From NCBI GenBank assembly GCA_943359345.1, contig CALRHE010000005.1:1-46916 (forward strand): a stretch of 46,916 bases of DNA, read 5' to 3'. The DNA comes from Candidatus Uhrbacteria bacterium. Its GTDB lineage: Bacteria; Patescibacteriota; Patescibacteriia; UBA9934. Position 1 is the first letter of the stretch. The number at the start of each line of letters is the position of its first letter. The translations under genes were made by a program, and so were the position numbers. This document shows positions 4,281 to 37,902 of this stretch, piece by piece. The notes under the pieces were generated by a model. It ran no database searches and was not told the origin of the DNA. It was given only the letters and a program-made list of their open reading frames with translations.

Positions 4281-5384
4281 TTATTCGAGGATTGGAGTAT
4301 CGACTACTTCTATTTCGATGACTTCCCCACCCTTACCGTTGGTAATCTTATTTACGTCCTTACTGACTTTACGCAGTTCGCTCGATGATAGATTGAATTG
4401 ATTAACGGTCGTCGACAGATTTTTGGCGACCTTGCCGTGGTACTCCGAGTAAGCACGCATGTGTTTGCCGAGTTCCTCGACCTGTTTTTGAATCATCAGG
4501 GCACTTTCTTCGATCTTCAAAGCTCGCAGACCTTGCAAAACTGTTTGTAAGAAAGCAAAGAACGAGGTTGGTGAGACCACGATCACGCGATACTTAGAAG
4601 CCGCGCGAGCGATCAAACTATCGGTTTCATCAGCGATAGTACCGATTTTGTTCACGAGTAGATCGTAATATACGGCTTCGTGAGGGATAAACATGAAAGC
4701 AAAATCCATAGTTCCCTCTTCCGGCCGGATGTACTTGGCGGTTTCTTGAATCCGGAGTTTGAGATCGTTTAAGAAAGTCTTTTCGAGCTTCTCGCGAGCT
4801 TCCGGGTTATTTTCTACGGCTAAGCGATTGTAATTTTCCAAACTGAATTTGGAGTCGATCGGAATAATCTTGCCATCGAGCAAAACCGCCGCATCGACAA
4901 TCTCACCGTTATTGAATTTGTACTGCATTTTGTAATGTTCAGGCGACAAAACGTTCTTCAGAGCTGTCTCAAGAAAATACTCCCCAAGGATGCCACGATG
5001 TTTGGGGTTCTTAAGGATGTCTTGAAGGTTCTGTAGCTGCGATGAGAAGTCGAGTACCTGCTTATTGGTAGCATCGAGGGTTGTTAGACGCAAAGTAATG
5101 TCTTCAATGATCTTCGAAGTCTGTGCAAACTGCGTCTGCATAGCCTTCTGTGAGTCACTCATACCCTTATAAACCTGATCATTGACTCGACCGAGCTGAG
5201 ACTGCATTTCGAGCCGCCCTTTGTCCTGGCCATCGTAAAGTTCTTTACGCATGGTGTTTAATTGTTCGATCAGTGCAGCTGTTGGGTCTGCAGCTTTTTG
5301 CGATAGTAGGCGTAAAAGAATGAAACCAAGACTAAAAAGTGTGAGAACGAGTAGGAAGATGATAACTAGAAATTCCGTTTGCAT
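4281..5384 (-). CDS. rmuC: DNA recombination protein RmuC
   Basis: N-terminal TM, coiled coil, then RGILGEYFLETALKNVLSPEHYKMQYKFNNGEIVDAAVLLDGKIIPIDSKF..., IRPEEGTMDFAFMFIPHEAVYYDLL, VVSPTSFFAFLQTV. Confidence 0.92.
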   Translation of the reverse strand: MQTEFLVIIFLLVLTLFSLGFILLRLLSQKAADPTAALIEQLNTMRKELYDGQDKGRLEMQSQLGRVNDQVYKGMSDSQKAMQTQFAQTSKIIEDITLRLTTLDATNKQVLDFSSQLQNLQDILKNPKHRGILGEYFLETALKNVLSPEHYKMQYKFNNGEIVDAAVLLDGKIIPIDSKFSLENYNRLAVENNPEAREKLEKTFLNDLKLRIQETAKYIRPEEGTMDFAFMFIPHEAVYYDLLVNKIGTIADETDSLIARAASKYRVIVVSPTSFFAFLQTVLQGLRALKIEESALMIQKQVEELGKHMRAYSEYHGKVAKNLSTTVNQFNLSSSELRKVSKDVNKITNGKGGEVIEIEVVDTPILE

Positions 5385-5417
5385 ATTGACCCAAGGGTGT
5401 TACGGAGACTATACTAT

Positions 5418-5432
5418 GTTCGCTTGCTGTTC
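5418..5432. promoter_or_regulatory. Candidate LexA-type operator GTTC-N7-GTTC upstream of rmuC
   Basis: GTTCGCTTGCTGTTC, flanked by an 8-bp inverted repeat CTATACTA/TAGTATAG. Same extended pattern TGTTCG-N5-TGTTCGTA upstream of recA. Confidence 0.55.
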
Positions 5433-5447
5433 GTAGTATAGCATGGC

Positions 5448-5610
5448 GGACCTTCTTAATTTTGCTCATTTTGACTCACGGGTCCCTGTTTCGACCTCAG
5501 CCTTCGATTACCTCAGGCTGCCCTGAGCTTGTCGAAGGGCACCGTATGGGTTACATACGCCTCGGTCAAAACATCCCGTTCATCCAAACTGGTCCAAAAT
5601 TAAAAAGTCC
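5448..5610 (-). repeat. Palindromic element family A, copy A1 (reverse orientation, with nested palindrome E)
   Basis: Core GACTCACGGGTCCCTG...CCGTATGggttaCATACGCCTC...CCCGTTCATCC. Outer arms GGACcttctTAATTTTG / CAAAATTAaaaaGTCC. Nested CCTTCGAttaCCTCAGGctgCCCTGAGcttgTCGAAGG. Confidence 0.85.
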
Positions 5611-8357: not shown

Positions 8358-10808
8358 GTGTTTACACGCACAGGGGGTTTTCAGCGATCAATACGTGTTC
8401 TGATTACGATCCTAGCAGTGGTCGTAAACAGTTTTTTTGTGTTGCCAGCTGGAGTAAAGGCGGCTACGGTTGATAATCTTACTGATCAACCATCATCACT
8501 CCAGATTTCGACAGCCTCAAATCATAAGTTTACGTTCACGCTAGTTGATGCTTGGAGTGAAACCGAATCGATCGTGTTTACGTTTCCAACGGCTTTTGAT
8601 ACTTCTACTGTTACCGCTACTGATGTTGACCTTTCACATGACGCAAGTGATCTAACTATTGCTAATGTTTGTGGACAGGTGCAAATTTCTGTCATCATGA
8701 CTGCCGACGTTTTAACCTTAACTCGCTGCTCGGGAGCAGCTGGTACAGCCTCACTTGGTACGGTTGTGACCATTGAGGTGGGTACCAACGCTTCGTTCGG
8801 TGGTAATGGCGTAAATCAAATTACAAATCCTTCAACAGAAGCCACTTATTATATTGCGCTTGGTGGGACATCTGGAAATGATGGATCTATTCCGCTTCCA
8901 ATTGGACCCCGGAGTGGCGCTGGTGTTTCGGTGAGTTTTAGTGGCGGAACGACTAGTACGGGTGATGGCGGAGATGAGAATGGTGGAAATGACGGAGGTG
9001 GACCCCCAGACCCTGATCCGGACCCCGACCCTGATCCAGATCCTGATCCGGACCCAGAGCCCGATCCTGATCCAGACCCTGATCCGGACCCTGATCCGGA
9101 CCCTGAAGATGATCCGCGAGACGAGCCCGAAGACGGTCAGGGTGATGATCCAGAGGATGACTCTGACTCAGAATCTGAAGACGATAGCTCCGTCGAGCCT
9201 AGAGAGGAGGGAGAGGTGATTATTGATATCGATGTTTTTGCCGTCCCGGGCCTTGAGTTGGATGAAGGCGGAGAAGGTATCGAGGTTTTACCAAATTCTC
9301 CAGCTATTGTTGTAGTTGATGTTGAGGCTGATCAGGAGCCGACGGCAGTTTTGGTGGTGATTGGTGACGAGGAATACGTACTCTCGCCTAACGATGACGG
9401 GACTTTTTCTGGCTTGATAATTTCTCCTGAAGGTGACGACGTGATTGGAGCCGTGGCGATTTTTGAAGATGGTACCAGGAGCACACAAACTGTCCTAATT
9501 GACGTGGTGGGAGGTGGCAGTGTTTACGAGTTGCTTAATGGCGAGAGAATTTTAGTTAGCAACAGCGTGGTAACGGCGTACGTGCTATCGCAGGGGCAAG
9601 AGACAGCTTGGTTGGCGGGTGTTTATGGTCAAAATAATCCCATTGTAACCGCGACCGGGTATTTTTCGTGGTATGCCCCTAACGGGACATATGTCATTTA
9701 TGCCAATAAAGAGGGGTATGAAGAAGGGAGCGAGACTGTTAAAGTCACAAATAATATTTTGGTGGCTCAAATTGAGGTTTCGCGCGAACTGAATTTACTC
9801 TTCGAACTACCGCCACAAATTGAAGAAACCGTAGAAGATGTACGAGATTTACTGAATACCCCGGAGGCTAAAACTATAGCCAATATTGCCTTGCCGGTGG
9901 CGGTGGCTGTGGCCACTAGCACGGCAGTAACTCTGGCTCTAGGTTTCAATCTTTTGCCGTATTTACAATATTTGTTTACCTCACCGCTGCTGTTGTTTGG
10001 TCGGAGAAAACGCCAGGCTTATGGGGTAGTTTATAACGCAGTCACCAAAGTGCCGGTAGAGTTAGCCATTGTTCGCCTCTATCACCTGCCAGACAACCGC
10101 TTGGTTAAGCAGGTAGTGACTAGCCCTGAGGGAAAATACAGCTTATCTGTTGACCCAGGCAAGTACAGACTCGAGGTTAGTAAATCCGGTTTTGAGTTTC
10201 CTAGTCAGTATCTTAAAAATATTCATGTTGACGATAAATTTTTGGATGTTTACTTGGGCGAACTTTTAGAGGTGACTGAAAAAGACGCAGTAGTTACAGC
10301 GAATATTCCGATTGACCCCCTGCAAACAGAGGCTTTTCATGCGCCGCGAATTCTGGCCTTTAGGCGCTTTGTCCGAACTTTCCAAATGTTGACCGTACCG
10401 GCTGGCGTCATTTTGTCGGTAGGGGTGTTCATTATTAGCCCGTCAATTTTTGCCGGCAGCATGATTGGCGTGCAGTTTGTTGTCATGTTGTTGGTGCTCA
10501 GATTAGCTAAACCCAAGAAGCCGAAGGGGTGGGGGGTTATTTATGATGAAAAGACGCATAGGCCTGTGGGCAATGCCATCATCCGTATCTTCGAACCGAA
10601 GTATAATAAGCTGGTCGAGACGGCGCTTAGTGACAGTCTCGGCAGGTATTCGTTTTTACTCGGGCCGAACGAGTATTACGCAACCTACAATAAGCCTGGT
10701 TACGTAGAGAAAATAGTCAGGTCAATTGATTTCAAGGATAAACCAGAGCCAACCCCGTGGTCGGCCAATACGGTGTTGCAACATGTATCGGAGGAACAGC
10801 ATGTTTAA
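8358..10808 (+). CDS. Large membrane/surface protein with Pro-Asp repeat linker, TM segments and two carboxypeptidase-regulatory-like domains
   Basis: GTG start 2 nt after the upstream stop; signal peptide IRVLITILAVVVNSFFVLPAGVKA. (PD)n linker. Two similar modules AYGVVYNAVTKVPVELAIVRLY... and GWGVIYDEKTHRPVGNAIIRIF.... Confidence 0.7.
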   Translation: MFTRTGGFQRSIRVLITILAVVVNSFFVLPAGVKAATVDNLTDQPSSLQISTASNHKFTFTLVDAWSETESIVFTFPTAFDTSTVTATDVDLSHDASDLTIANVCGQVQISVIMTADVLTLTRCSGAAGTASLGTVVTIEVGTNASFGGNGVNQITNPSTEATYYIALGGTSGNDGSIPLPIGPRSGAGVSVSFSGGTTSTGDGGDENGGNDGGGPPDPDPDPDPDPDPDPDPEPDPDPDPDPDPDPDPEDDPRDEPEDGQGDDPEDDSDSESEDDSSVEPREEGEVIIDIDVFAVPGLELDEGGEGIEVLPNSPAIVVVDVEADQEPTAVLVVIGDEEYVLSPNDDGTFSGLIISPEGDDVIGAVAIFEDGTRSTQTVLIDVVGGGSVYELLNGERILVSNSVVTAYVLSQGQETAWLAGVYGQNNPIVTATGYFSWYAPNGTYVIYANKEGYEEGSETVKVTNNILVAQIEVSRELNLLFELPPQIEETVEDVRDLLNTPEAKTIANIALPVAVAVATSTAVTLALGFNLLPYLQYLFTSPLLLFGRRKRQAYGVVYNAVTKVPVELAIVRLYHLPDNRLVKQVVTSPEGKYSLSVDPGKYRLEVSKSGFEFPSQYLKNIHVDDKFLDVYLGELLEVTEKDAVVTANIPIDPLQTEAFHAPRILAFRRFVRTFQMLTVPAGVILSVGVFIISPSIFAGSMIGVQFVVMLLVLRLAKPKKPKGWGVIYDEKTHRPVGNAIIRIFEPKYNKLVETALSDSLGRYSFLLGPNEYYATYNKPGYVEKIVRSIDFKDKPEPTPWSANTVLQHVSEEQHV
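9005..9107 (+). repeat. Low-complexity tandem Pro-Asp coding repeat
   Basis: Repeated CCnGAy units encode PDPDPDPD...EPDPDPDPD followed by an acidic tract. Confidence 0.9.
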
Positions 10809-22198: not shown

Positions 22199-22358
22199 GG
22201 CCTTCCTCATTTGGCCCATTTTGGACTCACGGGCCCCTATTTTGACCTCAGCCTTCGATTGCCTCAGGCTGCCCTGAGCTTGTCGAAGGGCACCGTAGCA
22301 TTAACTACGTTTAGGCCAAAACATCCCGTTCATCCAAATTGGTCTCAAATGAGAAGCC
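22199..22358 (-). repeat. Palindromic element family A, copy A3 (reverse orientation, with nested palindrome E)
   Basis: GGACTCACGGGcCCCTatTTTGACCtcag[CCTTCGAttgCCTCAGGctgCCCTGAGcttgTCGAAGG]gcaCCGTAGcattaaCTACGtttaGGCCAAAAcatCCCGTTCATCC; outer arms GGCcTTCcTCATTTG / CAAATGAGAAGCC. Closely similar to A1. Confidence 0.85.
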
Positions 22359-27882: not shown

Positions 27883-27911
27883 GTGACCCTGCTGGTTGGT
27901 TAAGGTAATAT
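27883..27911 (+). promoter_or_regulatory. Putative recA promoter
   Basis: GTGACC - 17 nt - TAATAT; predicted +1 falls inside the GTTC-N7-GTTC box. Confidence 0.45.
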
Positions 27912-27913
27912 CT

Positions 27914-27928
27914 GTTCGTGAATTGTTC
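27914..27928. promoter_or_regulatory. Candidate LexA-type operator GTTC-N7-GTTC upstream of recA
   Basis: GTTCGTGAATTGTTC; extended TGTTCG-TGAAT-TGTTCGTA matches the rmuC site. Confidence 0.65.
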
Positions 27929-27943
27929 GTAAAGATATTGTGT

Positions 27944-29005
27944 ATGGCGAAAGCAGGAGTAAACCCCCGGTTGGCAGCCGCCGCAGAGGCCATGAATCAG
28001 ATTAAAGAACGTTTCGGTGAAGGCAGTATTATGCGTTTTGGTGAGGCCAAGTCAACTAACGTTGATGCGATTCCGACAGGTTGTTTGTCACTTGATCTCG
28101 CGCTTGGTGCTTTGGGTGTGCCACGTGGTCGTGTGATTGAGATTTACGGACCAGAATCATCGGGTAAAACTACTTTGGCCCAACACATCATCGCTGAATG
28201 CCAGAAGCGGGGCGGGATTGCGGCCTTTGTTGATGCCGAACACGCTCTTGATCCAGATTATGCACGCAAAATTGGTGTTAACGTTGATGAGTTATTTATT
28301 TCTCAACCAGATACCGGTGAACAAGCCCTTGAAATTGTTGAAACCTTGGTTCGGTCTAATGCCATTGACGTGATTGTAGTTGATTCTGTAGCTGCACTGA
28401 CTCCTAAAGCTGAGATTGAGGGAGAGATGGGGGATAGTCACATGGGTTTGCAGGCTCGTTTAATGAGTCAGGCCTTGCGTAAGCTTACCGGGACTCTCTC
28501 TAAGACTGGGACTGTGCTGATTTTCATTAACCAGATCCGCATGAAGATAGGTGTGATGTTTGGAAATCCTGAAACCACGCCTGGCGGTAATGCCCTTAAA
28601 TTCTACGCCTCTGTGCGTATGGAAATCCGTCGTGCTGCCCAAATCAAGCAAGGCGACAAGGTGATTGGCAACCGCGTTAAGGTCAAAATCGTAAAAAATA
28701 AGGTGGCTCCGCCGTTCCGTGTGGCTGAATTTGATATCATGTACAATGAGGGTATTTCTGTAGCTGGCGACATGCTTGATTTGGGAGTTGTGGTTGGTTC
28801 GCTTGAGAAGCGCGGCAATAGTTATGCTTACGGTGAAGAAAAACTCGGCGTTGGTAGAGAGGTCGCCAAGCAGTATCTACGTGAACATTCTGAAACCATG
28901 GATCGACTCCGTATTGATACCCGCGAAGCAGCCCTAAGGGCTGAAGGTTTGGCTCCCGGTTCAACTTTAGTCAAGCCAGAAGACAATGACACAGATATCA
29001 ATTAA
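27944..29005 (+). CDS. recA: Recombinase RecA
   Basis: [89 protein letters not shown]. Start moved from 27896. Confidence 0.98.
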
Positions 29006-37775: not shown

Positions 37776-37902
37776 AGAAAACGACTTTATTCGCGACGAG
37801 TTTGGATGAACGGGAAAGAAATTTTTGAGGCGTAGATAAGTCTACGGTGAGAAAATTTCAGGGACCCGTGAGTCCGAAATCGGCCGAATAAAGTCGTTTT
37901 CT
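37776..37902 (+). repeat. Palindromic element family A, copy A4
   Basis: 18-bp perfect outer arms AGAAAACGACTTTATTCG/CGAATAAAGTCGTTTTCT. Core GGATGAACGGGaaaGAAATTTTTgaggCGTAGAtaagTCTACGgtgAGAAAATTTCagggaCCCGTGAGTCC. Confidence 0.9.

Follow-up and report, generated by a model that had tools for sequence, protein, structure and literature searches.

The two direct-repeat sites upstream of recA and rmuC in the 46,916-nucleotide stretch of Candidatus Uhrbacteria DNA analysed here (the window) are, as a whole, best explained as operators of the single LexA repressor of this genome, a reading to which comparison of sequences leads us to give a probability of about 0.93. The same comparisons give good support to an SOS regulon in Uhrbacteria that uses a direct-repeat LexA operator, and they also indicate that an uncultured Patescibacterium with a reduced genome retains a LexA-controlled DNA damage response that would comprise at least lexA, recA and uvrB.

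Sites upstream of recA and rmuC

A sequence-only reading of the window had proposed that recA and rmuC share a motif with 14 common fixed positions at equal spacing. Both copies were found to be exact (TGTTCGTGAATTGTTCGTA at recA and TGTTCGCTTGCTGTTCGTA at rmuC; Table 1), and the N5/N7 spacing was borne out at both. A -10-like element lies upstream of each box or runs into its edge, which would put the transcription start point inside the box. A simple scan for the sigma-70 consensus found no full promoter at recA, and for this reason the -10 and start assignments are offered as candidates; TAATATCTGTTCG at the recA -10 region was retained in G009, the nearest sequenced relative. An inverted repeat flanking the recA box (AATATCT/AGATATT) was dropped from consideration since it is lost in G009. 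The flanking inverted repeat at rmuC is retained there and was read as two -10 elements, and the box in this region may therefore be flanked by two divergent -10 elements.

Table 1. Positions of genes, predicted operators and candidate promoter elements (window coordinates unless a contig or locus is given)
Feature	Position	Strand	Details
Predicted LexA operator of recA	27913..27931	+	TGTTCG-N5-TGTTCGTA direct repeat; 12 nt to recA ATG
Candidate -10 element of recA	27906..27911	+	TAATAT
recA	27944..29005	+	Pfam RecA, 460.8 bits
Predicted LexA operator between rmuC (-) and tRNA-Arg (+)	5417..5435	+	32 nt to rmuC ATG
Candidate -10 element of rmuC	5435..5440	-	TATACT; overlaps box edge; identical in G009; putative function
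Second TATACT	5410..5415	+	Opposite strand; TTGACC-18-TATACT, 10/12 matches; putative function
rmuC	4281..5384	-	Pfam RmuC, 166 bits
lexA	C2:42003-42623		TIGR00498, 186.5 bits, above cut-off
First box of lexA promoter	C2:41948-41966	+	TGTTCGTTTTCTGTTCGTG; 36 nt to lexA ATG
Y-family polymerase gene	L184:2291-3562		IMS domains

Across the 732,051-base genome these two sites are the only exact matches to the 14-base pattern, and TGTTCG-N5-TGTTCGT (13 fixed bases) is matched exactly only in the recA, rmuC and lexA promoters; these are three occurrences against an arithmetical expectation of ~0.02 per genome with both strands counted. The core GTTCG-N6-GTTCG was also present in three copies in 732 kb, all of them in these promoters; because ~1.4 copies would be expected, the bare core count is not significant, and it is location and conservation that carry the significance. 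All three exact copies lie <60 nt from the start codon of lexA, recA or rmuC. Summed over the 23 family genomes, TGTTCG-N5-TGTTCGT with at most one mismatch yielded 95 matches versus 38 for the reversed control pattern. Matches with three mismatches were at chance level in the window (5 versus 4.35 expected), and such loose matches thus carry no meaning; those in the window and the genome were discarded as being at or below the control level, and most of the remaining one-mismatch matches in the genome were not accepted, being located inside coding sequence. The sequence-only reading had named two outcomes that would tell against it, a motif frequent in this genome or one missing from lexA and other repair genes; the motif instead proved to be rare and is present upstream of lexA.

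Two repeats of other kinds were observed in the window. A non-coding interspersed repeat (GGCTGCCCTGAGCTTGTCGAAGGGCACC ... CCCGTTCATCCAAA) is located at 5469-5605, 22220-22355 and 37786-37815 and occurs in part upstream of the G009 rmuC as well, and an array of short repeats with 18/12-nt spacing and Asp-Pro-like codons lies within a large open frame at 8988-9142.

Boxes at repair genes of this genome and its relatives

A position weight matrix made from the family lexA, recA and rmuC boxes was applied to candidate loci of the Uhrbacteria genome; as the regulon search was a pattern search, the resulting gene list is a lower bound. The promoter scan suggested earlier recovered lexA and, when one mismatch was allowed, uvrB and uvrD, and the boxes next in the matrix ranking were intergenic ones before uvrD/pcrA (CGTTCGTTTTTTGTACGAT, 15 nt to the ATG) and uvrB (TGTTCGTATTTTGTACGGC). 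Every one of the nine recA promoters that could be scored in genera g1 and g2 has a box, whereas recA boxes were absent from the remaining genera of the 23-genome family, which means that the link to recA is either recent or has been lost there. For uvrB, 15 of the 22 genomes had a box of at least 14.8 bits, which could lie on one strand or the other, and box orientation is therefore not fixed. The uvrD box was seen in the Uhrbacteria genome only and was not found in its closest relatives; boxes near uvrD in genus g7 were rejected, since at the locus that was checked (L180) they lie within the upstream coding frame.

A separate account has to be weighed for the rmuC site: LexA would truly act at recA, but the rmuC box would have arisen by chance or would act on a different transcript, such as one directed towards tRNA-Arg. 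The rmuC box reads on the plus strand and is thus inverted with respect to its gene, it is found at this position in only 2 of 23 genomes (the Uhrbacteria genome and G009; in G017 a box lies elsewhere in the rmuC promoter), and one of the TATACT elements, preceded by a fair -35, is directed away from the gene. Orientation is equally free at uvrB, however, and a chance origin must contend with the low expectation for the exact 13-base pattern, with the retention in G009 of the box and both TATACT arms as a footprint within otherwise diverged DNA, and with the listing of rmuC as a known SOS gene of Vibrio cholerae (PMC5963079). We consider this account of the rmuC site unlikely, and retain LexA control as the probable function of the box at rmuC as at recA.

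LexA-like boxes were also seen in front of other kinds of genes. In genus g2, a conserved intergenic box near 2028-2139 (L165-L168) lies upstream of a phosphatidylethanolamine-binding-protein-like gene (PF01161), with eno on one side and a Y-family polymerase gene on the other, and in most g2 genomes a BRO-N domain gene (PF02498) is preceded by a conserved box near 1903-1972 (L169-L173). In two genomes of genus g8, LexA-like boxes (TGTTCGGTTTTTGTTCTT near 1983 in L182 and TGTTCGGTATTTGTTCCT near 2016 in L183) are found upstream of the mraZ cluster, a possible link between SOS and cell division.

lexA, its promoter and the half-site

The genome contains one lexA gene, whose product is the only LexA-family match in the genome. 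Inspection of the gene and its helix-turn-helix, proposed as a check in the sequence-only reading, revealed a canonical LexA with a winged helix-turn-helix (PF01726), a PF00717 domain, an Ala-Gly cleavage site and a Ser/Lys dyad; none of 22 family LexAs departs from the A91-G92 cleavage site or from the catalytic residues S126 and K164, and the protein aligns over its full length with LexAs of solved structure. The gene is followed by two small ORFs that lack any Pfam match and, ~0.7 kb downstream, by a Y-family polymerase gene.

Two boxes are present in the lexA promoter, the first occupying the spacer upstream of the candidate -10 element and the second, weaker one (CGTTCTCCTTATGTTCGTA), which faces the first, covering the putative start region. 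GTTC-N7-GTTC was found upstream of lexA in 23/23 family genomes, and more than half of the family lexA promoters have two converging boxes that enclose a TATAAT-like element and are separated by ~25-26 bp. The lexA box of L082 is located ~470 nt upstream; in L203, which has the same promoter sequence, an inserted reading frame separates the LexA box from lexA, and the inserted gene would therefore also fall under LexA control. In most family lexA promoters (L062-L084), TTATCCACA or TTATCCCCA, resembling a DnaA box, stands shortly upstream of the LexA box, and GGATAA words related to it occur near several recA and BRO-gene boxes.

Protein and motif are tied together independently by covariation between residue 46 of the recognition helix (helix 3) and base five of the half-site; in many distant Uhrbacteria the half-site is GTTCT rather than GTTCG. 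With Q, E or D at residue 46 the fifth base was G in 64 of 74 half-sites, and with V, G or A it was T in 26 of 36 (in both cases raw counts that ignore kinship). The covariation occurs at three or more separate places in the LexA tree, namely the V clade, L200 (G) and L206 (A), with L225 (V with G) and L224 (E with T) as exceptions. These family-wide operators and LexA sequences with their natural covariation provide material for direct in vitro tests of direct-repeat recognition.

The covariation bears on whether some other helix-turn-helix regulator binds the box and merely happens to control repair genes. Some family members do contain further LexA-like proteins, yet the Uhrbacteria genome has its single LexA-family match, the box precedes lexA itself in every family genome, and it is a LexA residue that covaries with the half-site; binding by another regulator thus appears very improbable. 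That the likeness of the recA and rmuC sites is a short-motif coincidence would fit the expectation for the bare core and the chance-level three-mismatch matches, but conflicts already with the conservation seen at lexA, recA and uvrB, as well as with the rarity of the full pattern and its placement at promoters, and can be set aside as having almost no likelihood.

Proposed mechanism and relation to known LexA systems

Under LexA control of these sites, we infer binding, repression, induction by damage and the exact start points as follows. A LexA dimer would bind the two GTTCG half-sites, arranged in tandem with a spacing of one helical turn (11 bp), and at recA and rmuC would sit over the -10/+1 region and block initiation. 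Upon DNA damage, RecA filaments would trigger self-cleavage of LexA at Ala91-Gly92 and relieve the block, and the genes switched on would be lexA (with the Y-family polymerase gene downstream), recA, uvrB, probably rmuC and possibly uvrD.

In Gram-positive bacteria (Bacillus/Mycobacterium) the LexA box is CGAAC-N4-GTTCG, which has the same GTTCG half-site as the Uhrbacteria box but is palindromic. A scan of the upstream regions of 72 lexA loci revealed neither this inverted repeat nor GAAC-N4-6-GTTC. The sequence-only reading had drawn its comparison with Alphaproteobacteria, whose LexA box is indeed quoted as GTTC-N7-GTTC (PMC8565304). The GTTC half-site, the direct repeat and the N7 spacing are all the same; the likeness described here is one of motif. 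The host belongs to Uhrbacteria, and a fifth base, G, is part of the half-site in most Uhrbacteria-family members. The proposal of a LexA-like repressor with direct-repeat recognition is supported by the conservation of the lexA, recA and uvrB boxes, with the predicted repressor residing in Uhrbacteria and not in an alphaproteobacterium.

Direct-repeat operators have been described for Balneolaeota LexA at lexA, recA and error-prone polymerases, although their sequence (TTACACATATTTTWTACATA) differs from that in Uhrbacteria (PMC7739468). The same paper cites the Patescibacteria SOS network (Sanchez-Osuna, Barbe, Erill 2017, Environ Microbiol 19:3465) among apparent independent origins of direct-repeat recognition by LexA. 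The 2017 study, known here through that citation, concerns the same superphylum and subject, and may already contain parts of the present findings. Given the alphaproteobacterial box and the cited Patescibacteria study, the Uhrbacteria operator is a kind of switch already known; what may be new is the covariation at residue 46 and the pairing of converging boxes.

LexA relatives at 71-91% identity were mostly from Candidatus Uhrbacteria (Patescibacteria). The direct repeat upstream of lexA was present in most Uhrbacteria, including those at 60-64% LexA identity, and in several Berkelbacteria relatives, some of them at 50-53%; it was not found at the Gottesman-, Levy-, Magasanik- and Saccharibacteria lexA loci scanned. 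In a tree made here, which contained no alphaproteobacterial LexA, the Uhrbacteria and Berkelbacteria LexAs formed one clade. We propose tentatively, at odds a little short of even, that in this clade direct-repeat recognition arose independently of Alphaproteobacteria with the Gram-positive-type GTTCG kept, that residue 46 (Q/E/D versus V/G/A) sets the fifth base (G versus T), and that many members autoregulate lexA through two converging boxes. Separately, a direct-repeat box (TGTTCGGTTTTTGTTCGGT) accompanies one Lysobacteraceae lexA (L263:2501-3112), which differs in this from the genes placed next to it in the tree.
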